Source: a virus. From it: a stretch of DNA of 43,945 nt. The translations under genes and the position numbers were made by a program. Every line of letters begins with the position of its first letter. Positions within the stretch are counted from its first letter, which is position 1. Positions 10,001-31,755 of the stretch are shown piece by piece. Under the pieces are notes generated by a model. That model was given only the letters and a program-made list of their open reading frames with translations, was not told where the DNA came from and did not search any database. The DNA is taken from the IMG/VR virus record IMGVR_UViG_3300023174_000287, positions 1-43,945 of that record, one strand, 5' to 3'.

Positions 10001-13000
10001 CATATTAGGTAATACAGTAATTAGATTTGCTGTGCAGCAAGCAATTTCTGCTGCACTTATTTATGGTATTAATAAAATAGTAGAAACTGTTAATTCTAGG
10101 ATTGAAGGTGATAAAAACAAGCAAATCGTCTCGACTGTAGGTCAAGCTGCTCAATTTGGTATAGGAACTGCATTTTTAGGAGGAGGAGCGAAAGTGGGTG
10201 CTGGCATAGCTTTATCTACTTTGATCCCAGGATTGATAAGCGCGCTAGGATCTGCAGACCAAGCAACTAAAGATTTAATTGTTGCTTCTGAAGAGAATAA
10301 GGATAAAGTACAAGAATTTAATTCAGCTTTTTCTTCTTACAGTTCAAATCTAGAAAAATTAAAAGATGAAACTATTTCTGCTGGAGAAAAGCAAAAGATC
10401 CTTTCAGAAAATAATGAACAATTATCAAAAATACTTTTAAATACTCCAGATCAACTTAGAGATAATCTTAAAACAGCGCTTTCTGGTGGCGATTTTGAAA
10501 AAGTAACAGCAGCTCTATCTCAAGTGCAAGTAGCCCTACAAGTATCTGCTGCAAATACTGATAATTTAGCAAAGATTACTCAAATTACTTCTGATAAATC
10601 ATTAAAACCAGAAGAATTTAATAAATTAAGTACATCTATATTAGCTTTACAAAATGAGAGAGGAATTTCTGTTGCATCTTCAGTTATGAGTAATCCACAG
10701 ATACTTAAAAACTTTCAAAAATCTTTAGAAGCTCTACCTCAAACTCTTGATGTATCAAGTAGAGATTTGACAAATGAAATTGAAAAAAAATATGGTTACA
10801 GAATCGATATGGAAGGAACAACTGGTTATGCTAATAAAGGCAGAGTAAGTCCTTTTGCTCCGCAGGTAATAGATAAAAAAGAAATAGATAGATTAAAATC
10901 TTTAGTTCTTCCAGATGTACTTGCTAGAAAAACAAAAGAATTAGAACAGTCTAATACAAATCAATTGGTAAATTCCATAGAAAATTTGCTCAAAGACTCT
11001 CAGTTAAGTGAACCAGTAATAAAATCTGTAATTGATCCTTTAAGAAATGTACCTTTTGATGACGCAAGCAAAGAAATAGAAAATTTAAATAAAGTTTTAG
11101 AATCTCTTGGTTTTACTGTGCAAAAAACAGATAAAGGACTTCAAGTTATATTAAAATATACAAGAGATGATATTTTAAGAAGAGCAGGTCTTTCGGGAGA
11201 TGTTTCTGCGAATGTAGATTCGGCAAATGCATTTAGAAAGGCTTTAGATATAGAAGCGCTAACTAAATATAGTACTGAATTTTTAGATAAAAGAACAGAA
11301 TTAAATCCAAACAGAATGGCTGCTGGAAAAGTTTTAGACGCCCAAGAACAAATATACTCATCAATATTAAATGAAACAGAACGAAGAAAAGTTAACGCTA
11401 AATTCATAGAGCAAACAAACAATTTGCACAAAAAAGGCGTTATAGATTTAGATAAATTTATTCTAGCTGTTCAAGGTAGCCAAGAAGAACTTGTAGCTTT
11501 AAATCAAAGGGCGCGAGGATTAATGTTTGCTGAAGACTTTAGAGGCGCAAGACAGGCTGGAAGAGAAAAAAGAATATTAGGTGGAGAAACAAAACTAGAA
11601 GATTTTCCAGCTTCATTTTTTGACGAGTTTGATAATAAAACAGAAGACTCTTATAGACAAGCTCAACTTGGAGCAGCAGATACAGCACGAACAATTAAAA
11701 GTGAATTTAATAATGCCTTTTTATCTTTTGCGAATGGAACAGAAACAGCAAGTGATGCATTTACAAAAATGGCTAATAATATTAGTAATAGAATACAACA
11801 ATTAGCATTAGAATTTGCAACAAATCAAATTTTTGGTTCTCTTTTTGGTAGTACTAGTAATATCTTTGGTGGCAGTGGTGGAATCGGAGATTTCTTTGGT
11901 TCATTATTTAAATCAAAAGGCGGAATGATAAAAGGTTATTCGTCTGGTGGTAATGTAACTGGTGGATCAAGAAATAAAGATGATGTTCCAGCTATGTTGA
12001 GCGGTGGAGAATATGTTATAAGAAAAAGTGCTGTTAATAAATATGGTAAAGAATATTTGCAAATGTTAAATGAAGGAAAAGTTCAAAAAAACTTTTTTGG
12101 TGGTGCACTACAGAAGATGGCGATGGGAATAGCCTCCAAAGCAATCACTCAAGGTGTAGCAGCAATGAACCCAGCGGTTGCTCCTGTGTTTAACGCAGTA
12201 CTTGGTAAATATAAAGATGATGATAATGATTTTAAATTTTTTAAATATGGCGGAAGAGTCCAAAAATTTGCTGGTGGTGGAGAAGCTCAATTTTTAGGAG
12301 CAAATACTTATAGATATAATGATGCTCTTTATCCTACTGCAGGAGAGGATGTAATTGATCAAAGATTAAGTTTACGAGCTATAACTGATGAAAATAATCC
12401 ACAAAATGCCAGACGTAAAGAAAGAGAAGCGGCTTTATATGATTACTTAAATTATGTGGAAAGTGTTATGGAGTCTAATAGAGAGGCTCTTGAAGAAAAC
12501 ATAAGAATGAATCAGCAGATACGAGACGAATATAATAAGCAAAAAAGTGCAAGAAGCAGGGGTGCGCTCATGAGCTTTGGTCTTGGTCTTCTTGGAGCAG
12601 GAGCAAGTCAATTTTCTTCAATGGGAGGATTTAAAGGGTTACTTGGTGCTGGATCTTCATTGGGCTCTCAAGAGGTAAGAAGAGCTACCGCTGTAAATGA
12701 TGTAAATTTAAGATCTGGTTATGGTAGCACTACTTATAAGCCTACTCAACCTGCTCCATATTCTGGAGGAAGATTAAAATTAGGTAAAGCTAGCGGTGGA
12801 TATATTCAAGGTTTTGCAAATGGTGGTTCTAGTGGCAAAGATGATATTCCAGCTCTTTTAATGGGTGGTGAATTTGTAATGAGAAAAGAAGCTGTTAATA
12901 ATTATGGTAAAAAATTCTTTGATGATCTCAATTCTGGTAGAGCAAGAAAATTTGCTAATGGTGGAACAGCTGGTAATTCAATGAATCAAGTAGGCGAAGT

Positions 13001-13214
13001 AGGCACTGCCGTCTCTACAAATAATATAAACATAACAGTTAATGTTAGCGGCGGAGAAGTAACATCTGATAGTATGAATCAAAATTCCGCTTCAAGTGCT
13101 CAAGAAAACAATAAAAAAGGTGAAGATAGCAAGGCTTTGGCAGCTTTAATCAAAAATCAAGTAATGGAAGTTATCAATCAACAACAAAGACCTGGCGGGA
13201 TTCTCAGAAGATAA
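7011..13214 (+). CDS. Tail tape measure protein
   Basis: The 2067-residue product sets tail length and is carried inside the tube. The conserved phage tape-measure core is visible around residues 75-270, with the stretch around 165-260 (ALTATINSF...SSADLAEAI...RGGAVIGNSL) typical of the TP901/PhageMin_Tail type. Hydrophobic segments lie near 405-440 and 990-1080. The hexapeptide GF[IV]PNF occurs four times (starts at residues 539, 621, 910, 983). A second module, KDD[IV]PA..GGE[FY]V..K.AVN.YGK, occurs twice near the C-terminus (about 1656-1682 and 1943-1969), each preceded by glycine-rich sequence. At about 1.5 angstrom per residue the tail would be roughly 300 nm (inference). The stop (13212-13214) touches the stop of the opposing gene with no terminator between. 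Confidence 0.95.
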   Translation: MARTSATISVGADTRQLERDIQSALARDFKFKGLNEKAFTQPLGRITGASNEFQKSLDASNARVIAFGASAGLIYGVEKAFSSLIRSTIDVQKSLTDINVILNVSAKSLNTFGSGLFDIAKSTGQSFDAVARAATEFSRQGLGLEATLKRTKDALVLTRLSGLDTVASVEALTATINSFSDAALDSTTIINKLANVDAAFAVSSADLAEAIKRVGSSAQDAGVDFDELLAIVTSVQQTTARGGAVIGNSLKTIFTRIQRTDTLDQLEQLGIQVRTLEGSTLPAIQVLSNLASTFGTLGDSQKAQVAETVGGVFQINILKAALADLGKEYSIYNNALKTSSNATDQAITRNEALNQTLSSLVNKTFVNLTKVGSDFGKVSFGPSIENLLNLLNKGLESIDVDGGGIGNRIAKGIFEQIGAFVSGPGVVLLTAVVSKLVFNLGKFAAQSLQVLLNLNTKSEERAAIQAKINQVLSQEPALVQAVYNKEISVLDVENKILAIIRQQTLERQKAASLSTTLTTGLIGKGLSAKGGVLKAKSAGFIPNFASSEILGALAGGYDPGYVRKMNIPGEGSVTYNSAEKVKKFPGMDQPAIMPPQTSKAGKNYQSQFDSVYGFNPYASSGFIPNFSAISPAVQAAINKALSKGDIRSLTSNSTFTNRLTEAESTAVNLAKQKILAARVSTQNPTKITKSFDARGLGVLSLRGKSGDNITTSTSLATLPMFSNAVKSDPSIGQNMVQFNGVQVRSLDALDKQKPNEFIRLLTEQLLPPLANVATQFVGSALGNQGDGVNEVLGKIKNGKSFLPPGAIGDLFETVIKIATKNPGKFVQSVDDDFRRPFDFEESGAASGQFKSRFGFNSSLIKADAKLTSDSTAIRSIIKKAYNSNIPGLPFTELLSGKIPKTSSRKNKSKGFIPNFSALNDSINREVMAGTSPSRVRIGKDQRLTSASNPLGLGVYNTKDEPLGLSQGVSRAGSKAKTAGAANGFVPNFNPAVVVGGAILGNTVIRFAVQQAISAALIYGINKIVETVNSRIEGDKNKQIVSTVGQAAQFGIGTAFLGGGAKVGAGIALSTLIPGLISALGSADQATKDLIVASEENKDKVQEFNSAFSSYSSNLEKLKDETISAGEKQKILSENNEQLSKILLNTPDQLRDNLKTALSGGDFEKVTAALSQVQVALQVSAANTDNLAKITQITSDKSLKPEEFNKLSTSILALQNERGISVASSVMSNPQILKNFQKSLEALPQTLDVSSRDLTNEIEKKYGYRIDMEGTTGYANKGRVSPFAPQVIDKKEIDRLKSLVLPDVLARKTKELEQSNTNQLVNSIENLLKDSQLSEPVIKSVIDPLRNVPFDDASKEIENLNKVLESLGFTVQKTDKGLQVILKYTRDDILRRAGLSGDVSANVDSANAFRKALDIEALTKYSTEFLDKRTELNPNRMAAGKVLDAQEQIYSSILNETERRKVNAKFIEQTNNLHKKGVIDLDKFILAVQGSQEELVALNQRARGLMFAEDFRGARQAGREKRILGGETKLEDFPASFFDEFDNKTEDSYRQAQLGAADTARTIKSEFNNAFLSFANGTETASDAFTKMANNISNRIQQLALEFATNQIFGSLFGSTSNIFGGSGGIGDFFGSLFKSKGGMIKGYSSGGNVTGGSRNKDDVPAMLSGGEYVIRKSAVNKYGKEYLQMLNEGKVQKNFFGGALQKMAMGIASKAITQGVAAMNPAVAPVFNAVLGKYKDDDNDFKFFKYGGRVQKFAGGGEAQFLGANTYRYNDALYPTAGEDVIDQRLSLRAITDENNPQNARRKEREAALYDYLNYVESVMESNREALEENIRMNQQIRDEYNKQKSARSRGALMSFGLGLLGAGASQFSSMGGFKGLLGAGSSLGSQEVRRATAVNDVNLRSGYGSTTYKPTQPAPYSGGRLKLGKASGGYIQGFANGGSSGKDDIPALLMGGEFVMRKEAVNNYGKKFFDDLNSGRARKFANGGTAGNSMNQVGEVGTAVSTNNINITVNVSGGEVTSDSMNQNSASSAQENNKKGEDSKALAALIKNQVMEVINQQQRPGGILRR
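8625..9974 (+). repeat. Four GF[IV]PNF motifs in the tape measure gene
   Basis: The coding sequence contains GFIPNF at 8625-8642, 8871-8888 and 9738-9755, and GFVPNF at 9957-9974. Each is preceded by a small residue pair (SA, SS, SK, AN) and followed by A, S or N. The surrounding sequence is not otherwise repeated, so this is a short dispersed motif rather than a tandem duplication. Confidence 0.85.
11976..12926 (+). repeat. Duplicated C-terminal module in the tape measure gene
   Basis: Two copies of an about 27-residue module (starts at 11976 and 12837) share KDD, PA, GGE, a V[IM]RK segment, AVN and YGK. Each follows a glycine-rich lead (GGMIKGYSSGG; GGYIQGFANGG). The copies differ at the DNA level, so duplication is old. 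Similar 'DDVPALLSGGEFV' segments are common near the ends of tape measure proteins. Confidence 0.8.
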
Positions 13215-14627
13215 TTATATTATTAATTTAACAGAAAAGTTGATTAAGTCTTTGTCTGATAATACTTGAGATTTATTAATAGAACTATTTTCACTTAAAT
13301 ATTCATTTAAATTTTGCAGATCATAAGAGTATTTAAATAATAAAGTAATATATTCTTTATCTTCAATTAAGGTTTTATACTTTTCATGGAATTTAAGATT
13401 ATTACTAGTTTCTATATAAAATTTTTCATTGTTATAAAAAGATGTTATAAATTCAATATAAATATTGCAAGTATCAGGTAATTCCTCAATTTCTAGTATT
13501 TTAGCGCTTCTGATACCTTGATTTTGAAGATAATCAAGATCTATTATAACATCCTCATAATCAATTAAACCTTTTGCATAATATCCTAAATAATCTTTTT
13601 CTAAATTGTAAGTATTATCTAAAACATCATCAGTGTTTAAATCATCAGATAAGCAGATCGTTTTGTTAGATTGAGCTTTATTAAGTAAAGGAAAATATTT
13701 ATTAAAAATCATATCATTTATATTTAAATCTGTTTGTAATGAATTGGTTTCAATACTGTCTTTATTAAATAAATATATATAATTTTGATAAAATGCTACA
13801 GTGTCATTACTAATCGCTTGTTTATAAATTTTTCCAATATTAAAACATTGATTACTAAAATATTTTTGATATAAATTATTTACGTTTTCTTCAGATTCTC
13901 TTGAGATTAAAAAGGTATATAATTGAGATTGGAAATAATTTAATGGAATAATTTTAATATTTAAATTTTCTGAAATTTCTACTATATCAGTCTCAAGAAA
14001 AGGAACAGTTAGTAATGTTACTGAATCATTAACATTTAACCATTTTTCTTTAATATTTTCTATAAATAAATTATTTAATTTTTTATTTTTTAAAATTTTA
14101 TTAGAAACTTCAGTTAAAATTAAAAAAGAAAATATATTTTTTTCATCGAAATAGCTTTTATTTATTAACATTTTAATACTTATTAAATCTGAACTTCTAT
14201 ATATTTTATTAAATAAAAGATTTTTATTTAAATTTTCTATTTCTTCATATTCTATTTCATTTTGAAAAATTTTTTCAGAATTATTGTACTTAATTTCAAA
14301 TTTTAATTTTTTAAAAAATCCTAATTCATTTTTAAATTCTTTATATTTTGAATAATTATTTATAAAATCATATTTAAAAATATTTTTTGCTCTATTTCTA
14401 GAGACGCTGCTATAAAACTTTATTTTAGGAGTATCGATTATCCTTCTAGCGACTTTATCTATTGCTGGCTCATAATCATTAATATTTTTATATTGTTGTA
14501 TTATTTCATTTTCAGTATTTCTTATTGTAACGTCATAGTTAGGAAAATCTTCGTAAATTCCAAAATATTCTTGGATTGCTCTTATAGTATCCCATTCAAA
14601 AGTTAAATCAAAATTATTTATTTTCAT
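13215..14627 (-). CDS. Unknown protein at the end of the tail-tip operon
   Basis: The 470-residue product is very rich in Asn, Ile, Lys, Glu and Tyr, and I recognise no family. It begins with an ordered segment (NFDLTFEWDTIRAIQEYFG, about 4-22), has a long lysine/asparagine-rich middle, and ends with strand-like hydrophobic sequence (NFSVKLII). It starts two bases after the stop of the J-like gene, so it belongs to the tail-tip operon. Position after J would suit a tip accessory, fibre or receptor-binding protein, or a fibre chaperone. The sequence itself proves none of these. Its A/T content is even higher than its neighbours'. Confidence 0.5.
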   Translation of the reverse strand: MKINNFDLTFEWDTIRAIQEYFGIYEDFPNYDVTIRNTENEIIQQYKNINDYEPAIDKVARRIIDTPKIKFYSSVSRNRAKNIFKYDFINNYSKYKEFKNELGFFKKLKFEIKYNNSEKIFQNEIEYEEIENLNKNLLFNKIYRSSDLISIKMLINKSYFDEKNIFSFLILTEVSNKILKNKKLNNLFIENIKEKWLNVNDSVTLLTVPFLETDIVEISENLNIKIIPLNYFQSQLYTFLISRESEENVNNLYQKYFSNQCFNIGKIYKQAISNDTVAFYQNYIYLFNKDSIETNSLQTDLNINDMIFNKYFPLLNKAQSNKTICLSDDLNTDDVLDNTYNLEKDYLGYYAKGLIDYEDVIIDLDYLQNQGIRSAKILEIEELPDTCNIYIEFITSFYNNEKFYIETSNNLKFHEKYKTLIEDKEYITLLFKYSYDLQNLNEYLSENSSINKSQVLSDKDLINFSVKLII

Positions 14628-14629
14628 AA

Positions 14630-17600
14630 TTAATACACATTAACTCCAGAAACATTTACATCATTTTCAGAAACTTGATTTCTAAAAATCAAAGATCCTT
14701 CAGCTGGCGAAGACCTTTCTCCTATGCTATTTTGCGCAAATACTCTAAAATAATAAATACCAGTGCGAACTGGAGTTATAAAAGGAGGAAATATTGGAGC
14801 GTATAATTGTGAATTAAATGATACTCCAGTTTTTATATTTTCAGCTGAAATTGCGCTTAAAAAATTTTCTGTTGGTGTTGTAGAACCAAAATTTGTACCA
14901 GTTTTAACGTATGTATAATAAACAGTATTTAAAGAATTTTCTTTTGGAATTATATCGTATATTATACTATTAATTCCATTTTGATTTGTTGAATAGGGTA
15001 GATCACCTTGAGTTGGATCTCCGCATCCATAAGTTGCATAATCATTAAGAAATGGAGCGAAATAACAACCATTTTTATCTCTAAAAAGATTACTAAGTCT
15101 TAATTCAGGTTGAACAGGTAGACTTGGCCTTATTGGTACATTAACTAGTTGTCCAATATTATCTATATCTTTGAATTTTTGATCATCATATTTTAGAGCG
15201 TTAATTGTAAATATAGCATTATCATTTTCTATGATATTTAAAACTTTATATTTTTGAGATTTATTTAAATAAGATTCTAAATAATAACCTGGATAAACAG
15301 TTTGAGCATCATTATTTATTTTAGATCTTGTATTAATACCTACAGGCAAATAACCAGTTGTATCTATATTTATAATCCATGGCGCGCTTTGAGGAAATAA
15401 ATATCCACTACTTATATTTAATAAAGGAGAAGGAAAGTTTATTTGTATGTTATTAGAGTATACTCCAGATCCACTTGTTATATAATTTTTTGGATTATTA
15501 ATTTTGATAGATTGTATTTGACTTCTTTTGAAAAATGAACTATTTAATCCACTAATTCCAGAAGAATTTATAGAAGAGGTATAACCTGTAACATACAAAT
15601 CACCTAAATTTGTTCCAAAATCTAAATTATACGTTGGAGTTACAACGTCAAACATGAATGAATTATTTACATTAATACCACTTAATGCATATGTATTTGT
15701 AAAATTATATGGTAAATCCAATACCGCATATCCAGTTGTTAATTCTAAAGTCCTACCTGCGTAACTTAAATTTTTTCTTGCTTGATCATAAATAGATATA
15801 ACATCTCCAGGTCTTACAAAACTACCTTCTAAACCTACTTGAAATTCTACAGTTTCTGTATTTAAATTTTGAGTCGCAAGAAGCCATTTTCCAGCTCTTC
15901 TTGCTTGATTTTTGTTTGTGCATCCAAAAGAAGTAATTTCTGTTTCTCTAATTCCAAGTCTAAGCATAGCTCCAACATCTTCAACTATCTCTATGGCTGG
16001 TTTATAGTTGTCGTTTTCGTCATTATATCTTACTACTGCTACTGTTTTTCTCGATTTTTTTGAAGCATCAGAATAAGAAAATCCAGGTGCAATAACATTA
16101 CTATTATTAAATAAATAAATTGAATCTTTTGGAGAATCTTGAGATAAGAATATTTGACCAGCAGAATAGTAAAGTATGGCTAAAAATAAACTGGCCATAT
16201 CATTTAAAACCTTATATGCTTCTTCTTTTGTGCCAAAATATACGTTGCATTTAAATCTTGGCTCTAATCCACCAGCTCCATCACTTACTAATTGGTCGCA
16301 ATATTGACTTATTTCATATAAATTCCATTTATCTGCTAGTTTAGCGTCTATATATTTACCTAATCCAAATCTATTATTTGTTATAATATCATAAAAGCAC
16401 CAAGCTGGATTATCTGTCCATGCAACTTTAAATTTACCATTCCAAGGGCCACTATAGCTTCTTGTAATAGGATCATAATTAACAGGGATTTTAACTTTTA
16501 AAAGTTTTAGTAAGTAGGACCTACTGGGAATTGAGCCAAAATATCTTGCATCAAATTTTGAAAATATTAGTGCAGAATCTGGATAAACAAATCTATCGGA
16601 ATAAACTTCTGTGATACTATCTATTGAAGTTTCGCTCATAAGACTGGAAGAAGTAGCCTCCCTGGATGTTTTGATAATATCTATTACCCAACCGATTTGA
16701 TCATTAAACAATGGAAAAGTTGGTCTATTTTCGGCAAATGGTCTTAGTGTAACTTCATATGTCCAAATGATTGGCGAAGTTGAAATTTTACCCTTTAGGG
16801 TTATTTCATCATTTGACCAAGCATCTATTTCAAAAGGTGGATATTTTGAGGTGTCTAATTGAACTAAAGAGTAATCTTTCAAAAGTCTATAAATTAGAAA
16901 TTGAAATTGCGCTTCTTGCTGTTCTATGTCCCCAGCATTGCTACCTTTAACTATTTGTTCGTATAGACTTGATATTTTAATATTAATTTTTATGGAAGAA
17001 ATGTCTGTATTGTATACGTAATATGTTTTTGGTGTTACTATTCTTTGGCTACCGCTGATGAGATAATATCCATAAATTTTTTCATTAATTGATTTTGTCA
17101 CAGAAGTTTGAATTGGTATTTTATTTTTATCTACTTGTTTTCCAAAATAGTCTCTTCTTTCCTCATAAAGATTTAAATATGGATTATAAACTGTATGGTC
17201 GTTTGTTTTTTCTCCGTAAGTAAATTTATAATCTGAATATTGAAAATTATTAAATCCTTTTTGATCTGCTAGCGGCACTTCGTCCCAGAATATAGATCTA
17301 GCTTCTGGCGCACTATTTGTTGATCCGTGAGGTTCAAAACTAAATGAACTGTAACCAATATCTCCAGTAGTTTTACCGCTTAAACTATAATAATATTTTC
17401 CAGTAGGAAAACCTTCAATTGGACCTTCGCAAATTAAATCTAAAATATTTATTTCGGAAATAGAACTTAGTGCTGTTAGATTTTTTTTATTACCATAAGC
17501 AATTTCAGTTGCTCTATTCTTATCTACAGAAAAAATAGATTTTAAATCTGGAGCATTATTATCTACACTTGAATATACTGTATTTGGTGGACTACTAAAT

Positions 17601-17872
17601 CCAGCTCTAAAATCTTTGTAAGTATCAGTTTTTAATGTTGCTAATGGTGTATAAGTAGAATGAAATCCACTTGGTCCATATCCCCAACCTGAAACAGCTG
17701 TTGTTTCAAGATATGGAATAATAGAACCACTAAAAGATAAGGCTATAGCTCCAACTCCTCCACCATCATCTTGAGCGGTACTATTTGGAAAATTATATCC
17801 AACCGCTCCATATCCTAAATTTCCAGGAAATAATACGTAAGCCAAGCCGTCTGAATATTTATTAATTGCCAT
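14630..17872 (-). CDS. J: Tip attachment (central hub/host specificity) protein, lambda gpJ-like
   Basis: The 1080-residue product carries the tip-protein hallmarks: an LICEGPIEGF motif (about 146-155), a following PLAD...NNFQYSDY segment, then a long gp27-like hub region with NPAWCFYDIITNNRFGLG (about 475-495). Next come the KCNVYFGTKEEAYKVLNDMA-like segment and RPGDVISIYD (about 690-700). The last 130 residues look like a fibronectin type III domain (strands YYFRVFAQNSIGERSSPA near 1045-1062). This protein closes the tail end and usually determines receptor contact. It has about 100 glycine- and serine-rich residues before the conserved core. Lambda gpJ is of similar size (1132 residues). 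It follows the gpI-like gene by three bases. Confidence 0.9.
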   Translation of the reverse strand: MAINKYSDGLAYVLFPGNLGYGAVGYNFPNSTAQDDGGGVGAIALSFSGSIIPYLETTAVSGWGYGPSGFHSTYTPLATLKTDTYKDFRAGFSSPPNTVYSSVDNNAPDLKSIFSVDKNRATEIAYGNKKNLTALSSISEINILDLICEGPIEGFPTGKYYYSLSGKTTGDIGYSSFSFEPHGSTNSAPEARSIFWDEVPLADQKGFNNFQYSDYKFTYGEKTNDHTVYNPYLNLYEERRDYFGKQVDKNKIPIQTSVTKSINEKIYGYYLISGSQRIVTPKTYYVYNTDISSIKINIKISSLYEQIVKGSNAGDIEQQEAQFQFLIYRLLKDYSLVQLDTSKYPPFEIDAWSNDEITLKGKISTSPIIWTYEVTLRPFAENRPTFPLFNDQIGWVIDIIKTSREATSSSLMSETSIDSITEVYSDRFVYPDSALIFSKFDARYFGSIPSRSYLLKLLKVKIPVNYDPITRSYSGPWNGKFKVAWTDNPAWCFYDIITNNRFGLGKYIDAKLADKWNLYEISQYCDQLVSDGAGGLEPRFKCNVYFGTKEEAYKVLNDMASLFLAILYYSAGQIFLSQDSPKDSIYLFNNSNVIAPGFSYSDASKKSRKTVAVVRYNDENDNYKPAIEIVEDVGAMLRLGIRETEITSFGCTNKNQARRAGKWLLATQNLNTETVEFQVGLEGSFVRPGDVISIYDQARKNLSYAGRTLELTTGYAVLDLPYNFTNTYALSGINVNNSFMFDVVTPTYNLDFGTNLGDLYVTGYTSSINSSGISGLNSSFFKRSQIQSIKINNPKNYITSGSGVYSNNIQINFPSPLLNISSGYLFPQSAPWIINIDTTGYLPVGINTRSKINNDAQTVYPGYYLESYLNKSQKYKVLNIIENDNAIFTINALKYDDQKFKDIDNIGQLVNVPIRPSLPVQPELRLSNLFRDKNGCYFAPFLNDYATYGCGDPTQGDLPYSTNQNGINSIIYDIIPKENSLNTVYYTYVKTGTNFGSTTPTENFLSAISAENIKTGVSFNSQLYAPIFPPFITPVRTGIYYFRVFAQNSIGERSSPAEGSLIFRNQVSENDVNVSGVNVY

Positions 17873-17875
17873 AAA

Positions 17876-18667
17876 TTAAAAAGGAATTGAAGATAGGGAA
17901 TTCTGACTTATTAAATAACATCTTGAATTGAATATATATTGATTATCTCCTTCAAGAATAGATTGTTCAGTTACGCTATCATATTTACCTACATACGCTC
18001 TATATAATATATTATAATTTCCATAAACATTATTTCCACCAACTAATAAAGTACCATATCCTACTGGTACTGGTCCACCTTCCCCAACTGTATTCGATGG
18101 TCCATTAAAAAGATATGAATTTGCTCCACCTGCTGTTCCACCTATTGGATCAGCTTGTTTGGCCGTAAATGGTACATTTGGTGGAGGTTTAGATAATAAT
18201 TCGCTAGTTCCAGCAGCAATTAAACCTACGCTAGCCACTCCAATACTAACTGCAAGAGGCATGAAGCTAGGGAAAGCAACTCCAATTCCTATTCCAGCTA
18301 CTAATCCTACTGCACCTAATGTTATTTGACCAACTGGACTTTTAAAAAAATTGATAGCACTTTGGAAAATATCTGCGCCAATTAAACAAGGCACAATATC
18401 TATTGTTTGAATTTTTTCATCTAAAATCATAAATAATTCTGTATTTTTCATTTCTTCTATACTTTTAATATCTGGAATTTCAGAAAAAAGAGGAGTACTA
18501 TTTATTAATATTTCATACCCATAATCTAAATTATTTATTAAATATTTTCTTAATTTTTTTGTATTTACTTCTATCGCATTTAAAGCTTCGGCTACGCTTG
18601 AAACTTCAAGATCCCAAGATTCTCCAATATCTTGTCCTAATTTACCATGTAAATTGACTTTTATCAT
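17876..18667 (-). CDS. I: Tail assembly protein I-like
   Basis: The 263-residue product matches lambda gpI in order and features. It has a ubiquitin-like N-terminal domain (about 1-90, beginning IKVNLHGKLG), a glycine-rich hydrophobic middle with two possible membrane-inserting stretches (about 112-158), and the conserved C-terminal signature with SYLFNGPSNT, GGPVPVGYG and LLVGG (about 187-212). gpI is needed to assemble the tail tip but is not a major virion part in lambda. AGGA upstream of the ATG gives a normal ribosome site. It lies between the K-like and J-like genes, as in lambda. Confidence 0.85.
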   Translation of the reverse strand: MIKVNLHGKLGQDIGESWDLEVSSVAEALNAIEVNTKKLRKYLINNLDYGYEILINSTPLFSEIPDIKSIEEMKNTELFMILDEKIQTIDIVPCLIGADIFQSAINFFKSPVGQITLGAVGLVAGIGIGVAFPSFMPLAVSIGVASVGLIAAGTSELLSKPPPNVPFTAKQADPIGGTAGGANSYLFNGPSNTVGEGGPVPVGYGTLLVGGNNVYGNYNILYRAYVGKYDSVTEQSILEGDNQYIFNSRCYLISQNSLSSIPF

Positions 18668-18671
18668 ATTT

Positions 18672-19055
18672 TTATCCTAAAGAATTACATGCAAAATGTA
18701 TCGTTGGAGTTAATTTCTTTAAATTAGTTGATTCATATACTTTAAATATATTTTTTTTAATATTATGTAGTATTATTGGTATCATTAAAGATTCAGAGCA
18801 TGCTTTATCTAATTCAGAAAATTCACAGTTTTCACTTATATGACTATGATATATATAATATATTTTATTATATATATATTTTGTTTTCAAAAAATCAATA
18901 GAAGAAATTTTAAAGAAGTTAATTGGATCGGGAGCTATATTTTTACATGGGACACACATAAAATCATTTTCAAAAACTATAAAACCACATGCTTCTTGCG
19001 TATCATCTTTTAAGCATGCTTCGCGAATAGAGTCTTTAATTTTTTTATTAAACAT
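18672..19055 (-). CDS. K: Tail-tip JAB/MPN metalloprotease, lambda gpK N-domain-like
   Basis: I choose ATG 19055 (127 residues) over ATG 19100. It reduces the overlap with the upstream gene to eight bases and starts right before the domain, whereas the extra 15 residues look unrelated. The JAMM zinc site appears intact: glutamate in EACGF (near residue 21-25) and HSH-x7-S-x2-D (HSHISENCEFSELD). In lambda gpK this domain is joined to an NlpC/P60 peptidase, which is absent here; the protein ends shortly after the JAB fold. It probably processes or helps assemble the tail tip. Gene order M-L-K-I-J supports the call. Confidence 0.8.
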   Translation of the reverse strand: MFNKKIKDSIREACLKDDTQEACGFIVFENDFMCVPCKNIAPDPINFFKISSIDFLKTKYIYNKIYYIYHSHISENCEFSELDKACSESLMIPIILHNIKKNIFKVYESTNLKKLTPTIHFACNSLG

Positions 19056-20418
19056 TTGGTTTATTTGTTCCAGGAAATCCGCCAAATGGTAAAAATCCAT
19101 TTAAATAATTACCGTTTGCATCTTTAGGAATTCCATGAGAATTTGGAGAACTAGGATCTTCAACTCCAGGTCTTCTAGGAAAATATACTTGTTGACCATT
19201 AATTCCAGTTAGCCAAACGCTTTTGGTAGTATAATACGTCCAATGCATTCTTAAAGCAGTATCATTATAATTTTCTCCTCCTCTATTGGTTGGCCAAATA
19301 ACTGGTCTAAACGCAGGATTTTTCAGCCATCTAAGTCTGCAGGCTGAAATATCCTTAGAGCAAACGTCTGCTTCCCAATAATTTTTATTTAAAGGTGTAT
19401 CAAAAACATTTGATGTGTGATTTTTAATACAAACAAAATAATTTTTTAAATTTTTATTTTCTAAAAAGACAAAATCACCAGAAACATATGTATTATTTAT
19501 ATTCCAAGCTCCAGAATTACCAAGTGAACCATTGGTTCCTTGATTTGACCCAGTGATCCTAAATATTGCGCTAGCTCCAATTTGTCCTGTGGGAAAAATT
19601 CCACCAATAAATAATTGATTATTTTCTGTTGCTACTGGTGGAGCAGTTAAAAGACCTTTTACATTAAAATCAGGATTCACTGTATCTGCGTAAATTCCAC
19701 TATGCAACGAGGTCAATCTACTATTGTATTCATAACAACATCCTTCTCCACGATATTGAAAAGGACATTTTTTTGAATATATTGTCCTCCCTGGAAAAGT
19801 TAAATTTTCTAAATCAAGAATTGTATTAAGTTGATATTCAACAATAGAGGTGTTTTCTATAGTTTTTCTATCTATATAGTATATGTCTTTTGGAAGTTCT
19901 ATTTCGTAAATTCCAGTATTTGTTGCATATATATTATATCCTTCTTGAAAGTTTAAAGAATTTAAATATTTTAAAAATGTTCTAATCCTTGTAAATTTTG
20001 CGCCAATTATATCATCAAGAGATTGAATTTGCATTCTAATGTAGTTATAGAAAGAATTGTTGGAATTATCAGGAGAAAAATTTGATATTGATATTTTTGG
20101 CGTAGGTAATGTGGTGGATGAATTATACTCGAATCCCTCTGCTTTTATGGGAAATGGATAATAAGAATTATTTTGCCAATTAATTATTCCGTATGGATTA
20201 TTTGTTAATTTAAATAGATTGAAATTATTGTAAATACGTAAAACTCCCATATTAGTTGGCTGATTATTTCCATAACTTAATGTTTTTGTTATTGGATGAA
20301 TTTCAGAAAAATCTATTTCAAATAATTCAATTAATTGTGATGGACTAGAAGATAGAAGATTTTCTCTAATATCTCTACTACCACTTATAATTGATAAATA
20401 GGTATCGTATTGAGCCAT
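19048..20418 (-). CDS. L: Minor tail protein L-like with inserted carbohydrate-binding-like module
   Basis: The 456-residue product follows the M-like gene by one base. An N-terminal domain (about 1-200) like lambda gpL contains FTRIRTFLKYL near 142-152. The iron-sulfur domain is marked by Cys218-x8-Cys227 and Cys353-x6-Cys360, the CX8C/CX6C arrangement I recall for lambda gpL. Between the two pairs lie about 125 extra residues. Their last part (about 303-350: AWNINNTYVSGDFVFLEN...YFVCIKNH...YW) resembles a CBM5/12-type carbohydrate-binding module. The C-terminal tail (about 375-456) is Gly, Pro and Asn-rich. It should form the tail tip with M- and J-like proteins. Lambda gpL is only 232 residues. 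Confidence 0.8.
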   Translation of the reverse strand: MAQYDTYLSIISGSRDIRENLLSSSPSQLIELFEIDFSEIHPITKTLSYGNNQPTNMGVLRIYNNFNLFKLTNNPYGIINWQNNSYYPFPIKAEGFEYNSSTTLPTPKISISNFSPDNSNNSFYNYIRMQIQSLDDIIGAKFTRIRTFLKYLNSLNFQEGYNIYATNTGIYEIELPKDIYYIDRKTIENTSIVEYQLNTILDLENLTFPGRTIYSKKCPFQYRGEGCCYEYNSRLTSLHSGIYADTVNPDFNVKGLLTAPPVATENNQLFIGGIFPTGQIGASAIFRITGSNQGTNGSLGNSGAWNINNTYVSGDFVFLENKNLKNYFVCIKNHTSNVFDTPLNKNYWEADVCSKDISACRLRWLKNPAFRPVIWPTNRGGENYNDTALRMHWTYYTTKSVWLTGINGQQVYFPRRPGVEDPSSPNSHGIPKDANGNYLNGFLPFGGFPGTNKPNV

Positions 20419-20419
20419 A

Positions 20420-20956
20420 TTATTCTGCTACCTCAGAAAATTCAACTTTTATGTTATAAAGATTATAGGAAACGGGCTGAACTGTCCATGTGAGACAAGT
20501 AAACATAGTCTTAGTATTAGGCTTGGAATAAATTGTGGGTAAATTATAAACAAAACTTTCTTTAGCGTTTCTTTCTTGTAAAAAATGTAAAATTGATACA
20601 GTTTCCAACTCACTTCTATTTTCGAAATTTAAACCGATCTGTTTTAAATTATTATTAATAGAGTCTTGTATTCTTTGTTGATAACCATTTCCAAATTGAT
20701 TTATTTTTATTCTAGGACTATTCAAAAACTCCGCTCCATAAGAAGGTTTCCACCAAAAATTTGGATATAATACACTATTTAAAGATATATATCCATCCCA
20801 CTTAACTTGAAGATTACTTGGAGTGATTGGATCTTGACCAACATTTGAATCTATTATTGAATAATAGAATCTATTATTACTGCCTTTTACAATATCGTAC
20901 TTCTTATAAGTAGATCCTGCGCCCCAAGTAGGAACTGTATCGTAAATACTTGCCAT
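20420..20956 (-). CDS. M: Minor tail protein M-like with N-terminal carbohydrate-binding-like module
   Basis: The 178-residue product is the first gene of the tail-tip operon. Residues about 68-178 match the gpM/distal-tail type: FWWKPSYGAEF, then IKINQFGNGYQQRIQDS (about 83-99), followed by a helical segment with ILHFLQERNAKESFVYNLP. The first 60 residues are extra and look like a CBM5/12-type module (TWGAGSTYKKYDIVKGS...FYYSI...W). Lambda gpM is 109 residues and lacks it. GAGG and AAAGG lie upstream of ATG 20956, a good ribosome site. gpM-type proteins start the connection between tail tube and tip. Confidence 0.8.
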   Translation of the reverse strand: MASIYDTVPTWGAGSTYKKYDIVKGSNNRFYYSIIDSNVGQDPITPSNLQVKWDGYISLNSVLYPNFWWKPSYGAEFLNSPRIKINQFGNGYQQRIQDSINNNLKQIGLNFENRSELETVSILHFLQERNAKESFVYNLPTIYSKPNTKTMFTCLTWTVQPVSYNLYNIKVEFSEVAE

Positions 20957-20978: not shown

Positions 20979-20985
20979 TTTACAC
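20979..20985 (-). promoter_or_regulatory. GTGTAAA element upstream of the tail-tip operon
   Basis: On the minus strand GTGTAA followed by A ends 23 bases before the M-like ATG at 20956. It is the left half of an inverted repeat whose right half is the plus-strand copy at 20995, so one site may drive both divergent operons. Confidence 0.4.
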
Positions 20986-21000
20986 TTAAAAGAAGTGTAA
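20980..21000. repeat. Inverted repeat in the divergent intergenic region
   Basis: TTACACTT (20980-20987) and AAGTGTAA (20993-21000) are perfect 8-base inverted repeats around a 5-base spacer, in the only divergent gene gap of the window (20957-21009). Each arm is a GTGTAA element pointing at its own gene. It could be a dyad operator or simply two back-to-back promoters. Confidence 0.6.
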
Positions 21001-21009: not shown

Positions 21010-21816
21010 ATGTTTAATGTCTATTCTATAGAAAATCAGAACTTTTATCTAAATGATTCTTCGGTATCTGGAATAAAAAGTTTTAATGTTGGCGTTGATC
21101 TTAAGATAGCTCCTCAAATATCTATAGATAATTCGATTAGTTATACGAAGAATGGCTTGCCAGTTGCTCAATTCGACTTATCTTATATATTGAGTGATAC
21201 TGATAGATTTTTAACATATACAGGTATAAGTTCATTTTCTGGTAAAATTGAGTATGGTGATAAATATGTAACGTTTACAGATGGGTATTTGACTAATTAT
21301 TCTTTAAACTATAAACTAGGAGAATATCCAACTGTTGATATAAGAGGAGTTATTTTTAATTGGACAGCTTCTCAAATATCTTTTAGCCCAAAACCAGTAA
21401 ATTTAAATACATTTAATATTGGAGATCCATGTTTTATAGATACGAACATAGCAGATTTTAGTTCTAATCGAGTTCAATCATTTGGAATTAATATTGATGT
21501 AAGTCGTATACCCAATTATACTATTGGAAATTATTTACCAGACACTGTATATATTCAATATCCAATAAAGCAAGAACTGTCAATAGATGCTAGCGCAAGC
21601 AATTCAATATTTGTATCAAATCTCCGTAATTTACCAAACTCAGGGTATATTGCTCCTGATGCTGGACAATACATATCAATAAAAAAATATCAATCTAATT
21701 CAAATTTGGCCACGTTTAATTTACCCAATAATATCATTACTAACTTAAATTCTACATTTAGTAACGATAATGAAGCTCAATTTAGTCAAAGAAAAGTACT
21801 ATATCTGCAACCATAA
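21010..21816 (+). CDS. Tail tube-like protein, paralogue of the major tail protein
   Basis: The 268-residue product shares three collinear blocks with the tube protein at 3428-4579. They are SFNVGVD...AQFDLSYIL (24-61; there SFNVARTD...VSLDFSYIL, 58-92), YSLNYKLGEYPTVDI (97-111; there YSTEGSVGNFPTASI, 166-180), and VQSFGINIDVSR...YPIKQELSIDA (155-194; there IQSYNLSFDLGR...RPIDFPLAVNLSVDA, 258-297). It lacks the N-terminal 35 residues and some loops, being 115 residues shorter. It lies divergent from the tail-tip operon. It may form a special ring at one end of the tail, a tube decoration or a baseplate-proximal tube section. No Shine-Dalgarno sequence precedes its ATG. Confidence 0.65.
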   Translation: MFNVYSIENQNFYLNDSSVSGIKSFNVGVDLKIAPQISIDNSISYTKNGLPVAQFDLSYILSDTDRFLTYTGISSFSGKIEYGDKYVTFTDGYLTNYSLNYKLGEYPTVDIRGVIFNWTASQISFSPKPVNLNTFNIGDPCFIDTNIADFSSNRVQSFGINIDVSRIPNYTIGNYLPDTVYIQYPIKQELSIDASASNSIFVSNLRNLPNSGYIAPDAGQYISIKKYQSNSNLATFNLPNNIITNLNSTFSNDNEAQFSQRKVLYLQP

Positions 21817-21858: not shown

Positions 21859-22161
21859 ATGGAAATAAAAGATATAATAAGATCTCGTGCTTTTTTAAAA
21901 GTTTTTATAAAAGATGATGTTGCTTTCAACTCTTTAAAAGAGAAATTTCCCGAAATAATTGCCGATTTAACTACTCTAAAAAATAACGCTAATTGTTCTT
22001 GTAGGGGTCGAACAGTAAATTATCTTATATCAAAAATTGAAAGTGAAAAAGATTTTTTTTCTTATATGTTTTCTGAAGAAAATATAAAAAATATAGTTAA
22101 AAGAGAAGAAGAAGAAAAAGAATCAATAAAACGATCTAGAGGAAGAAGCAATGTTTTATAA
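21859..22161 (+). CDS. Small charged protein, unknown
   Basis: ATG 21859 is preferred to the in-frame TTG two codons upstream. The 100-residue product has a helical N-terminal half, an NCSCRGR segment (about 46-52) with two cysteines, and a very charged C-terminus rich in EEE and RSRGR. No family recognised. The stop overlaps the next gene by 11 bases. It could partner the membrane protein that follows, but nothing in the sequence shows that. Confidence 0.55.
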   Translation: MEIKDIIRSRAFLKVFIKDDVAFNSLKEKFPEIIADLTTLKNNANCSCRGRTVNYLISKIESEKDFFSYMFSEENIKNIVKREEEEKESIKRSRGRSNVL

Positions 22162-22447
22162 TTTTTTAGCATATCTTTTACTTTGTTTGAGTATAACTTA
22201 CGCTTGGAGCGATACTGAAGCAGCCAGACCTTTTCGTAATTTTTTAGTTAAAATACCTTATATTCATAAACCCTTGCTTTGCCATGAATGTTCTAGTTTT
22301 TGGATATCTTTAGTTCTTAGTTTTTTTATTAATCCATTCATTACATTAACTTATCCTGTGTTAAGTAATATTTTAAGTGCATTTTGTGGATTTTTTATTA
22401 ATTTATATTTTGTTAGAAACCAATTAGTTAAATATAAAGATTATTAA
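22151..22447 (+). CDS. Small membrane protein with CxxCxxFW motif
   Basis: The 98-residue product has a hydrophobic N-terminal segment (about 3-18), then LCHECSSFW (about 43-51) at the head of a second hydrophobic segment (50-66), and a third near 68-90. A CxxC pair just before FW at a membrane entry recalls the DUF1360 type of small membrane proteins. Function is unknown. GAGGA at 22139-22143, seven bases upstream, supports the start. Its stop overlaps the stop of the opposing gene (22444-22447 region), with no terminator between. It might act at the host membrane (lysis or exclusion), which is speculation. Confidence 0.6.
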   Translation: MFYNFLAYLLLCLSITYAWSDTEAARPFRNFLVKIPYIHKPLLCHECSSFWISLVLSFFINPFITLTYPVLSNILSAFCGFFINLYFVRNQLVKYKDY

Positions 22448-26927: not shown

Positions 26928-26956
26928 ATGTTACTATCTATATTTAAAAATGTCAA
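26928..26956 (-). promoter_or_regulatory. Sigma70-like promoter for the SSB-like gene, leaderless
   Basis: On the minus strand, consensus TTGACA (26956-26951), 17-base spacer, TAACAT (26933-26928), then eight bases to ATG 26919. The -35 box overlaps the stop of the polymerase gene. No Shine-Dalgarno sequence fits in the expected leader of zero to two bases. Confidence 0.75.
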
Positions 26957-29550
26957 TTATTTTTATCTGTCTTTTTTAAATCATTTAATTTCATATAAAT
27001 TTGATGATCTTGAATAGCTATTAAGTCTCCAAATATACAATCATCTCTCTTTGAACCTTTGGCGATAACAATATTTCCTTCTTCAAAAGCTTTATTATTT
27101 AATAATTTATTATTTTCAATATTATCATTAAATATCAATACGCTAATTGAGCTAGTTTCATCTGATATTTTTAATCTTGTATATCTTGTTTTCTTTTCAT
27201 TTTTAGATACGCCAGTATACACTTCTTCTATTTGACCAACAAATGCCACTTTGCTATTAACTGGTTCATCTATAATATCACTAACATATTTAAGGTTTTC
27301 TCTTTTCTCCGCGAAGATATCTCTTAAATTTTTATTATATGTATATCCTAAGAGTTTCTTTTCATAATACCAGTTAGCAAAACTTTCACTTTTACTATTC
27401 TGATTATAGATTTCAAGATATGGTGCATATTTAGCTTTGATAGTATTTAATCTGTTATCTTTAATAACTAAATGATTTTTTTCGTCAGTAAATTTATTGA
27501 GATGTTTAATAATTTTAATTAAGTCATAATCGAACTTATCTGCGAATGAAATTGAATACTTCTTTTCTTTAGCGGTTAAAATATTCCACAATTGAGCTTC
27601 TAGTACAATTTTACTTCTGGATTGATTAAAGCCACTTAATGCTCCTGCTTGAATCAAGGAAGATAATACTCCAATATTAAGATTGGCTTCTTCCGCTGCT
27701 TGGAAGATCTCGAATTTATTAGAATACTTATTTCTGAAACTATTTAGTTTTTCAATAGATTTATCACTAATTCCTTTTATAGATAATAGACCAAATCTAA
27801 TATCTTTATCTTCTATTGAGAAATCCATTTCTGATTTGATAATGTGTGGAGGAAGGAGTTTGATATCAAATTCGTGCATTTCTTTTTGAATCTTAGAAAT
27901 TTCACCAATTGGATCTGGTTCATTTCTACTCATTTTTAATAAAGATAAAAAGAATTGTTGAGGATGATTGAATTTTAAATAAATTGTAACTGCCGCTAAA
28001 GCTGCATAAGCCAATGAGTGGCTTTTATTGAACGAGTAATTAGCGGAGTCTTCAAGAATTTTCCATAGAATCTCTCCTACTTCTTTAGGTATTTTATTTT
28101 CTTTGATCTTTGATTCGATCTTCTTTTTCCAAGCTTTGATCTCTTCGGTTTTCTTTTTGCCTACGATTCTTCTTAATATTTCTGCTTCATCTAAAGTAAA
28201 TCCAATCTTATTAGCCATCTTCATCAATTGCTCTTGATACAATGCTACTCCACCAGTTTGTTTGAGAATATCATCAAAGAATGGATGAATACTTTCTGAT
28301 TGTTGATAATTTGTATGGGCAGCATATTTATCTACGAATTGTAATGCTCCAGGTCTTGCTAAAGCTAGTACTCCACTAAGTTCTTCAAGATTCTTTGGTT
28401 TTACTTTTTGACAAACTCTAAAGTTAGTTTCTGCTTCAATTTGGAATAAACCATGAGGAGATTTTAAATCTTGTAGATTTCTATAGATAGATTCATGATT
28501 TAAATCAATATCTTCTACTTTAATGCCAATATTTTTACAAACATCATCAACTACGGAAACACTTCTTAATCCCAAGATATCAAGTTTAATATTAAATAAA
28601 CTAACCCAATTCATATCAAAACTTGAAACTGGTTCTTTATCAGAAGAAAATTCTGTTGGACATACTGTTTCTAAATCGTAGTAAGAAAGAAGAACTCCAG
28701 ATGGATGAACTCCCTTGTTTTTGATTAAATCTCTTAACTTTAAAGCAATTTGAAATGTTTCTTTATTTTCATCGCACCAATCTTTAAATTTTTCTACTTC
28801 TTCATACGCAGTATTAATATCTTTAACTTGGCCGAATACTTTTGGAATTAAAGAAGATATATTGGTCATTTCTTCTTCTGTTTTTTCTCCAACAATTTTA
28901 CCGCATTCTTTGATTAATAGTTTTCCGCTCAAGGTGTTGAGAGTCAAGATTTTGCTAGTTTTACCTTTAAATTTAGATTCTAAATACTGTAATACTTTTT
29001 GACGATTATAATAACAAATATCCAAATCAACGTCGCACATCAAACTGCCATCAAGATATGTTATCCCATCAATAACCTGCTTTTTAGCTCGAATCTTGGA
29101 TATAAATCTTTCGAAATAAAGATCATATTTAACTGGATCAATTCTAGTTACCCCAATTAGATAAAGGATAAGTGAACCAGCAGCTGAACCTCTACCTAAG
29201 CCAACTGGTATATTATTTGTTTTACAGAAATTAATAACATCCCATACTAATAAAACGTAATCCGTAAATCCTAATTCTTTTAATGTTTCTAGTTCATATT
29301 TTGCTCTATCAATATATTTCTTGTAGTCTTTATGATCTTTCTCTATCTTCAAATACTTAAAACCATTTAATGCTAATGCTCTAAGAAAATCATAATTAGA
29401 AACATCTTCGCTAATATTAAGATGTCTTTTTAAAGATCCATCAATATTAAACTCTGGAAGCCTGACTCCATGTAATCCAAGGTCAGTGGTGGTGAACTTA
29501 CTAGAAAATGCTTCGTCTTTTAGAATATTATTCATCATCTTGGTCTTCAT
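26953..29550 (-). CDS. dnaE: DNA polymerase III alpha (DnaE), polymerase part of a split gene
   Basis: The 865-residue product is the replicative C-family polymerase without its PHP domain. Visible are GRGSAAGS (119-126), the catalytic pair Asp173-x-Asp175 in CDVDLDIC, the third catalytic aspartate Asp324 in KLDILGLR, the fingers and thumb regions, a helix-hairpin-helix segment (LLSIKGISDKSIEKL), and a C-terminal OB fold (VAFVGQIEEVY...YTRLKISDE, about 750-800). E. coli DnaE is 1160 residues. The missing N-terminal PHP domain is encoded at 30976-31719. The first 30 residues align where full-length enzymes pass from PHP to polymerase. Start could also be ATG 29538 or 29535, which reduce overlap with the upstream gene. 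Confidence 0.9.
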   Translation of the reverse strand: MKTKMMNNILKDEAFSSKFTTTDLGLHGVRLPEFNIDGSLKRHLNISEDVSNYDFLRALALNGFKYLKIEKDHKDYKKYIDRAKYELETLKELGFTDYVLLVWDVINFCKTNNIPVGLGRGSAAGSLILYLIGVTRIDPVKYDLYFERFISKIRAKKQVIDGITYLDGSLMCDVDLDICYYNRQKVLQYLESKFKGKTSKILTLNTLSGKLLIKECGKIVGEKTEEEMTNISSLIPKVFGQVKDINTAYEEVEKFKDWCDENKETFQIALKLRDLIKNKGVHPSGVLLSYYDLETVCPTEFSSDKEPVSSFDMNWVSLFNIKLDILGLRSVSVVDDVCKNIGIKVEDIDLNHESIYRNLQDLKSPHGLFQIEAETNFRVCQKVKPKNLEELSGVLALARPGALQFVDKYAAHTNYQQSESIHPFFDDILKQTGGVALYQEQLMKMANKIGFTLDEAEILRRIVGKKKTEEIKAWKKKIESKIKENKIPKEVGEILWKILEDSANYSFNKSHSLAYAALAAVTIYLKFNHPQQFFLSLLKMSRNEPDPIGEISKIQKEMHEFDIKLLPPHIIKSEMDFSIEDKDIRFGLLSIKGISDKSIEKLNSFRNKYSNKFEIFQAAEEANLNIGVLSSLIQAGALSGFNQSRSKIVLEAQLWNILTAKEKKYSISFADKFDYDLIKIIKHLNKFTDEKNHLVIKDNRLNTIKAKYAPYLEIYNQNSKSESFANWYYEKKLLGYTYNKNLRDIFAEKRENLKYVSDIIDEPVNSKVAFVGQIEEVYTGVSKNEKKTRYTRLKISDETSSISVLIFNDNIENNKLLNNKAFEEGNIVIAKGSKRDDCIFGDLIAIQDHQIYMKLNDLKKTDKNN

Positions 29551-29752
29551 CTACTCTATCAATATTGTCTATTTCTTTATTAAAAGCATCTAATCCAGTC
29601 GCTAATACTTTCATGGATGCTCTATCTTTTAAACTAAAAAATACATCTGCTTTACCTTGTTTCTTGCCTTTTTGTACAGTAATAAGTAAATATTCTATCC
29701 CACCATCTTCTAATTTTTGAATTACATCGTAAATATCGTCTAATGATGCCAT
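29528..29752 (-). CDS. Small acidic protein between exonuclease and polymerase genes, unknown
   Basis: The 74-residue product has an N-terminal helix, a beta pair (IEYLLITVQ, about 19-27; ADVFFSL, about 35-41), a helix, and a strongly acidic tail (DRVDEDQDDE). GAGG about seven bases upstream supports ATG 29752. It lies one base after the exonuclease gene and overlaps the polymerase gene, so it is produced with them. Acidic tails of this kind occur on proteins that contact replication partners. No family is recognised. Confidence 0.55.
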   Translation of the reverse strand: MASLDDIYDVIQKLEDGGIEYLLITVQKGKKQGKADVFFSLKDRASMKVLATGLDAFNKEIDNIDRVDEDQDDE

Positions 29753-29753
29753 A

Positions 29754-30392
29754 TTATACCTCTAATTGCCATTTCAATTTATTCCATACTTTTAAATTCA
29801 AGTCAAGATCATTAATAGCGTCATGAAGTTTTTCATAGTCATGTTCTATTCCGTTTTCTTTACCCAAGAAAGTTAAAGAGCTTTTAACATTCTTTTTTCT
29901 AGTATGAAGAATTTTATATTGATATTGTGTTAAATTATCCTTTGAATTATAAGGCATCTCATATTTTATACCTCTTGCTACTGCATTTGTATCAATAAAC
30001 TTATTTACAAGATGATGCCAATTGCAACCCATATATTTATAGTACTCTTTTATAAGATAAATGTCAAATCCAAGAGTATTATGACCAATAATATAATCTG
30101 CATGATCCAACCAATCTTTAATCGTTGGAAATATTTCTTTTGGATCAAAACCTTCTTTTTGAACTTTTTTATGATCATATCTGGTAATTCTAGCTGCGTC
30201 TTGACTAATCTTTAAATCTGTTTGCCATTTTAAATAAAAATTCTTTTGATCAATTTTCTTATCGCCTTGAACTTTAAGCATAGCAATTTGCCAAGGAAGA
30301 TTATGACAAAAGTTTAAACAAAGATTGAATGTTTCACAATCTATAAAAACCAAAGTCTTATTCTTGTCATATCTTAAAAGATGTTCGTCCAT
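29754..30392 (-). CDS. DnaQ-like 3'-5' proofreading exonuclease
   Basis: The 212-residue product has all three DEDDh motifs: Asp18-x-Glu20 in FIDCET, His104...Asp110 in GHNTLGFD, and the final His190 with Asp195 in HDAINDLD. It removes mismatched 3' ends and is likely the editing partner of the split DnaE, being encoded between the two polymerase fragments. Since the phage PHP domain looks inactive, this enzyme would supply proofreading. It is followed after one base by the small acidic gene. Confidence 0.9.
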   Translation of the reverse strand: MDEHLLRYDKNKTLVFIDCETFNLCLNFCHNLPWQIAMLKVQGDKKIDQKNFYLKWQTDLKISQDAARITRYDHKKVQKEGFDPKEIFPTIKDWLDHADYIIGHNTLGFDIYLIKEYYKYMGCNWHHLVNKFIDTNAVARGIKYEMPYNSKDNLTQYQYKILHTRKKNVKSSLTFLGKENGIEHDYEKLHDAINDLDLNLKVWNKLKWQLEV

Positions 30393-30395
30393 ATA

Positions 30396-30974
30396 TTATA
30401 CGTCAATTATAAATGATTCTTGTTTTCTATTCAAGATTTTATGTCTTTCATAAAAATCGTCTGGAATTTTTTGGTCTCTTATTTTATAATGCCATCTCAA
30501 ATGAGCTGGTTTATTTTGATAAAGCCATTTATTATTATCTTTAGTTAAATTATAAAGATAAAAATGCATTAAATCTTTCGAAAATGCTACGATAATAGAT
30601 GGTGCGCCTACTTTAGTTGTGATAAACACACTCAACTTGCCTTGGCCTTGATTTCTGTATCGTGTAACAATTGATTTAAAAAAGTTAAGTGATGGTCTAG
30701 TTTCAATAGTAGTTTTCCATTCTTGATCATCTATCATTTCGACATCATATCTTGATTGATAATTATTTATTAAAGTAAGCTCAAGTCCAGCAACAATAGT
30801 TGGCACTCTAGGCCTTTCATATTTTACGCACATTAAATCTACATCAATTGAATAAAGGCTATCTTCATCATAAAGCATATTTTTATAATCATAGGATCTG
30901 TCTTCTCTACTTTGTATTTGTCTTGCTTTATTACCATATTGATTGACGATTACTTCTGGATTTTGAATTTTCAT
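30396..30974 (-). CDS. Unknown protein between polymerase fragments
   Basis: I choose ATG 30974, one base after the PHP gene stop, instead of ATG 31010, whose extra 12 residues would only be the overlap. The 192-residue product has an ordered core with VPTIVAGLELTLIN (about 58-71) and GQGKLSVFITTKVGAPSIIVAFS (about 108-130), then basic C-terminal helices with HLRWHYKIRDQKIPDDFYERH. It could bind nucleic acid or the polymerase. I do not recognise the family. It is expressed from the PHP gene promoter together with the exonuclease and polymerase. Confidence 0.6.
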   Translation of the reverse strand: MKIQNPEVIVNQYGNKARQIQSREDRSYDYKNMLYDEDSLYSIDVDLMCVKYERPRVPTIVAGLELTLINNYQSRYDVEMIDDQEWKTTIETRPSLNFFKSIVTRYRNQGQGKLSVFITTKVGAPSIIVAFSKDLMHFYLYNLTKDNNKWLYQNKPAHLRWHYKIRDQKIPDDFYERHKILNRKQESFIIDV

Positions 30975-30975
30975 A

Positions 30976-31719: not shown

Positions 31720-31726
31720 TTTTACC

Positions 31727-31755
31727 AATATAACAAGAATTTATAAATATATCAA
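31727..31755 (-). promoter_or_regulatory. Sigma70-like promoter for the split-polymerase operon, leaderless
   Basis: On the minus strand, TTGATA (31755-31750), 17-base spacer, TATATT (31732-31727), then seven bases to ATG 31719. The -35 box overlaps the end of the upstream nuclease gene. Expected transcript start is within two bases of the ATG. Confidence 0.7.

Follow-up and report, generated by a model that had tools for sequence, protein, structure and literature searches.

In phage T5 the protein p140 is described as a product of pb6 gene duplication that is 9% identical to pb6 and lacks an Ig domain, and it forms the single ring between the tube and the distal tail protein (PMC10038345). 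Both p140 and p132 are named as landmarks of T5-like phages only, and T4 gp54 is named as a ring similar to p140 (PMC10038345). In lambda it is the gpM ring that anchors the tip onto the hexameric gpV tube (PMC10721106). An extra ring joining tube to tip has so far been described for T5-like and T4-like phages, and not together with a lambda-type tip. Here we describe a phage with such a tip in which a second tube-like protein, P1, is truly paralogous to the tail tube protein, P2.

The window, by which we mean the whole stretch of 43,945 nucleotides analysed (IMG/VR virus record IMGVR_UViG_3300023174_000287), has a G+C content of 29%. Its + strand carries, from left to right, the neck genes, P2 (3428–4579), two small genes, two unassigned genes and the tape measure protein gene (7011–13214), and the tip genes then occupy the − strand (13215–20956), where they are transcribed in the order M, L, K, I and J, with P1 (21010–21816, + strand) beyond them. 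M (20420–20956) is a lambda gpM-like first tip ring protein (Phage_min_tail, residues 67–176) with an extra N-terminal domain of ~65 residues, and is accompanied by a lambda gpL-like tip protein (L, 19048–20418), a K-like tip assembly protein (18672–19100), an I-like tip protein (17876–18667) and the central tip / host-specificity protein J (14630–17872), all on the − strand. Matches to phrog_14, 18, 30, 32 and 31 occur in this same order, and the tip is thus of the lambda type. As the initial annotation had stated, P1 lies past the tail-tip operon in divergent orientation and is 115 residues shorter than P2 (open frames of 268 and 383 aa were found). It starts 53 bp beyond the start of M, the first tip gene, and is 16.4 kb from P2.

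Several other features of the window were recorded. L contains a central stretch weakly resembling carbohydrate-binding module 5/12 (Pfam E 0.13), and P1 is followed by a gene (22151–22447) whose small product has a CHEC-SFW motif and probably sits in a membrane, and which is kept in most relatives. We considered whether s102 and s98, small genes after P1, might represent a duplicated pair of chaperone genes, comparable to the two small genes that follow P2; this was dropped, and they are left out of our claim because P1 keeps its place in several distant relatives that do not have them. Elsewhere the DNA polymerase is apparently split, with 26953–29550 corresponding to the C-terminal part of phrog_405 and 30976–31728 to the N-terminal part, and an exonuclease-subunit gene and one unknown gene lie between the two parts (window 26953–31728).

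Between M and P1 lies an inverted repeat with perfect 8-bp arms, TTACACTT-N5-AAGTGTAA (20980–21000), which occurs once in the window and, though its arms vary somewhat, is retained by nearly all relatives. This repeat between the divergent genes is probably regulatory, and an operator or a divergent promoter is possible. No Shine-Dalgarno-like stretch was seen upstream of P1, whereas the tube and M genes each have one (GGAG and GAGG, respectively), which fits a low-copy product and suggests that P1 expression may be low.

The paralogy of P1 and P2 is backed by BLASTP, by hhalign profile comparison and by fold search. The three shared blocks on which it had initially been proposed are present, collinear and beyond chance, with the second slightly misquoted (given as Y-x-PT-x-I, where P1 has YPTVDI and P2 has FPTASI). 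The first block comprises SFNV (P1 24–27 and P2 58–61) together with FDLSYIL in P1 and LDFSYIL in P2, and the third comprises VQSFGINIDVSRIPNYTIGN...YPIKQELSIDA in P1 and IQSYNLSFDLGRTPIERLGN...FPLAVNLSVDA in P2, with the BLASTP alignment of the two proteins (E 7e-6) spanning the latter. As a single-sequence phmmer query P1 alone matched 18 tube proteins of other contigs (4e-6 to 6e-4). When family profiles built from 44 P1 and 34 P2 homologues from IMG/VR contigs were compared by hhalign, the probability was 91–95% (E 5e-8 to 9e-7), with P2 84–374 aligned onto P1 48–265 (profile columns), a span that covers every shared block but SFNV, and this climbed to 96.7% (E = 3e-10) with distant P1 members added. 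The noise level of the profile comparison was set by each family against its own reversal (0.008–0.023), the other family reversed scored 0.35–0.88, and 23 other gene families of the window gave no hhalign matches to P1 or P2 at E < 0.01.

In the AlphaFold model of P1 (mean pLDDT 73, pTM 0.75) two fused beta-sandwich domains are predicted in one chain, as in two-domain tail tube proteins. The top solved-structure match was 7qg9_G (E = 1.3e-8, 298 aa), and the 298-aa chain of PDB entry 7qg9 is the T5 'baseplate tube protein p140'; DT57C p140, the SH-Ab15497 tube protein and T5 pb6 ranked next. The model aligned along its whole chain with p140, 8xan, pb6 and 8ed0 (306–375 columns), whereas single-domain tube proteins aligned with just ~half of P1 (about 120–150 columns). 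TM-scores of these matches were moderate (0.61) and many two-domain tail proteins in a viral fold library score close to the p140 match, so that the fold match alone cannot single out p140 and it is the gene context which adds that. P2, the main tail tube protein and also of the two-domain type, gave a poor model (pLDDT 56) that nonetheless matched this same set of two-domain tube proteins best (Foldseek best matches 8xan, T5 pb6 and p140); it should be noted that both models were built on shallow alignments. The initial annotation had named differing folds or an absent profile relation as grounds for abandoning the paralogy, and neither was found, the P2 model being of low confidence and the two models not directly superposable. 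A trimer is to be expected because two tube domains are fused in P1, and on these models both P1 and P2 are probably trimer-forming two-domain proteins. Pfam and PHROGs gave no significant family for P1, and a PDB sequence search with the P1 and P2 family profiles returned chance matches only. Assignment of P1 to phrog_290 ('minor tail protein') was set aside as weak (best E 0.0044, 5 of 44 members), and Caulobacter phage Sansa, a fold-search match, has one tail-subunit gene in its annotation and was of no help.

Terminators have the tube fold as well, and the structural matches of P1 include, with weaker E-values, neck and connector chains of other phages, as might be seen if P1 were a terminator or completion ring at the head-proximal end of the tail. 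We regard this as most improbable, since these matches are single-domain and cover half of P1, two genes with no assigned function (1895–2500 and 2502–3371) hold the usual terminator place before the tube gene, and P1 is linked to M.

That link is general, as P1 adjoins M in all relatives inspected (IMG/VR loci where the M side is present) and the pairing is still present in the most distant contigs. P1 was found in 30 of 30 tube-bearing contigs reaching far enough, 16–27 kb after the tube gene, and the contigs without it (8 of 38 tube-bearing contigs) stop 4.5–17.4 kb beyond the tube gene. In L101, a close relative of the longest such contig (L100), P1 is located at 19.5 kb. In L114 (G036, 7317–13164) there are two M–P1 pairs with a homing-endonuclease gene in between, where one P1 directly precedes M, in the same orientation, and the second M–P1 pair comes after. 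A C-terminal IPT/TIG domain scoring above Pfam's cut-off (E 1.7e-4) is present in the second P1 (325 aa), and the first copy (542 aa) ends in a Ser/Thr/Pro-rich tail or stalk at its C-terminus, and both point to an exposed C-terminus; the paired arrangement possibly provides two alternative tip junctions in one phage. We also note that in L023 (10001–10536) a stop codon splits P1 into two open frames, reflecting a sequencing error or a decayed copy, and that a 643-aa gene before the tube gene in L108, considered as a further tube copy, was rejected as it is a homing endonuclease. Searching named phages by tblastn with P1 and P2 gave no matches, and no relative was found in the GTDB genomes searched. 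The P1 group represents widespread phages known here from metagenome contigs only, and collection and composition suggest a freshwater origin.

Two main classes of P1 occur in these contigs, one sharing ~80% and the other ~45% identity with the window copy, and tube identity in the same contigs is 69–91% to the window. P1 distances track those of M (Mantel r 0.32, p 0.001) and L (r 0.31, p 0.001), and the expected co-variation between P1 and the tube was not detected (Mantel r 0.06, p 0.15); one contig combines a J with 81% identity to the window and a P1 with 41%. On these sequence comparisons P1 has a closer, though weak, association with the tip genes than with the tube, and is itself exchanged. 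This bears on the suggestion that P1 serves as a minor or alternative subunit of the tube, either interspersed with P2 or taking its place over part of the length, which would agree with its homology to P2 and with the occurrence of tube duplication in the group, where a distant contig pair (L109, 4838–7802, and L110) encodes, in addition to P1, two full-length tube proteins in tandem (574 and 393 aa). We consider it unlikely, however, as P1 is without the conserved P2 N-terminus and ~115 residues, does not co-vary with P2, and its gene stays by M.

Conservation across the P1 classes is concentrated in residues 1–15 (MFNVYSIENQNFYLN; 21010–21054), 61–105 (FSGKIEYGDKY...GYLTNYS; 21190–21324) and 166–180 (RIPNYTIGNYLPDTV; 21505–21549), all on the + strand, the last being a loop with its counterpart at ~P2 269–283, and the C-terminal third is variable, a pattern in keeping with a ring whose contacts are conserved and whose outer surface varies. 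Residues 1–15 are 95% identical across the two allele classes and also under codon-level constraint, with excess codon conservation (0.84 vs about 0.6), and this signal may arise partly from DNA-level constraint or recombination. Within P1 class A dN/dS is about 0.2–0.3, indicating purifying selection. The swapping of two deep allele classes among related genomes, together with the C-terminal domain or stalk of the G036 proteins, could also be taken to mean that P1 is an exposed, adhesin-like appendage on a tube domain which serves host contact, with any structural part secondary. This seems very unlikely to us, given that P1 in the window phage scarcely exceeds two tube domains and that its best-conserved segments match ring-contact loops.

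The reading we prefer is that P1 is probably a tip-proximal ring joining the tube to the tip as an adaptor or initiator, in the manner of T5 p140, with its virion location and copy number being what we infer. The initial annotation had offered three guesses, and the M adjacency, the p140 match and the co-variation with the tip speak most for the ring next to the tip and less for a cap or an alternative subunit. P1 would be a virion protein, and one trimer of it would make a solitary pseudo-hexameric ring at the tube's lower end, with the last P2 ring above and the M ring below. Tip assembly with the tape measure protein is known in lambda, and here the J-I-L-K-M tip would likewise assemble with it, after which the P1 trimer would dock on the M hexamer via its own N-terminus and conserved loops. 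The opposite face of P1 would imitate a P2 ring and start P2 polymerisation up the tape measure, and the outer C-terminal side may carry or anchor surface parts, as the C-terminal domains in distant relatives suggest. A ring held by two conserved partners should vary less, and both the existence of two P1 classes ~45% identical and the contig with divergent P1 and similar J count against this proposal. More speculatively, and with a rather small chance of being right, P1 might be an adaptor separate from p140 that fits a T5-type two-domain tube to a lambda-type tip, with alleles swapped because the outer surface meets host or defence factors, and with M–P1 duplicated in some phages to give, possibly, two junctions.

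Comparison with known tail systems shows both shared and distinct features. Like T5 p140 (phrog_3889; PDB 7qg9, 9ioz), P1 has two fused tube domains in about 270–300 aa and is a shorter paralogue of a two-domain tube protein without an Ig domain. Sequence gives no support for placing P1 in the p140 family, as the P1 and p140 profiles gave no match (hhalign, E 0.25–0.48) and none of the 44 P1 members matched phrog_3889. The p140 gene directly follows the major tube gene in seven T5-like phages, whereas P1 adjoins M, and this position by the tip counts against a p140-like reading; the tip is also M-L-K-I-J rather than pb9-pb3-pb4, and the p132 collar gene was not recognised here. The two-fused-domain fold predicted for P1 and P2 is shared with T5 pb6 and the SH-Ab15497 and P74-26 tube proteins, but unlike these P1 is not the main tube gene, and it has no sequence match to pb6. 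Since P1 and P2 are still alike in sequence and neither is like pb6 or p140, a separate duplication is simpler, and the P1 duplication was probably separate from that of T5 p140, with one old duplication and then slow drift a less simple reading. The T4 tail is contractile and gp54 forms a single-domain hexameric ring, unlike P1. The proposed P1 ring nonetheless resembles gp54 as an extra tube-like ring, which in T4 leads from the tube initiator to the first true tube ring (PMC10038345). Lambda is similar in that our phage has a gpM-like protein and lambda gpM docks directly on the tube (PMC10721106), and different in that gpV is a single-domain hexamer with no ring between it and gpM. P1 offers a testable case of tube and tip module compatibility when phages recombine. 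A probably independent duplicate on a lambda-type tip suggests that the addition of a specialised last ring has come about repeatedly, perhaps in connection with two-domain tube proteins.
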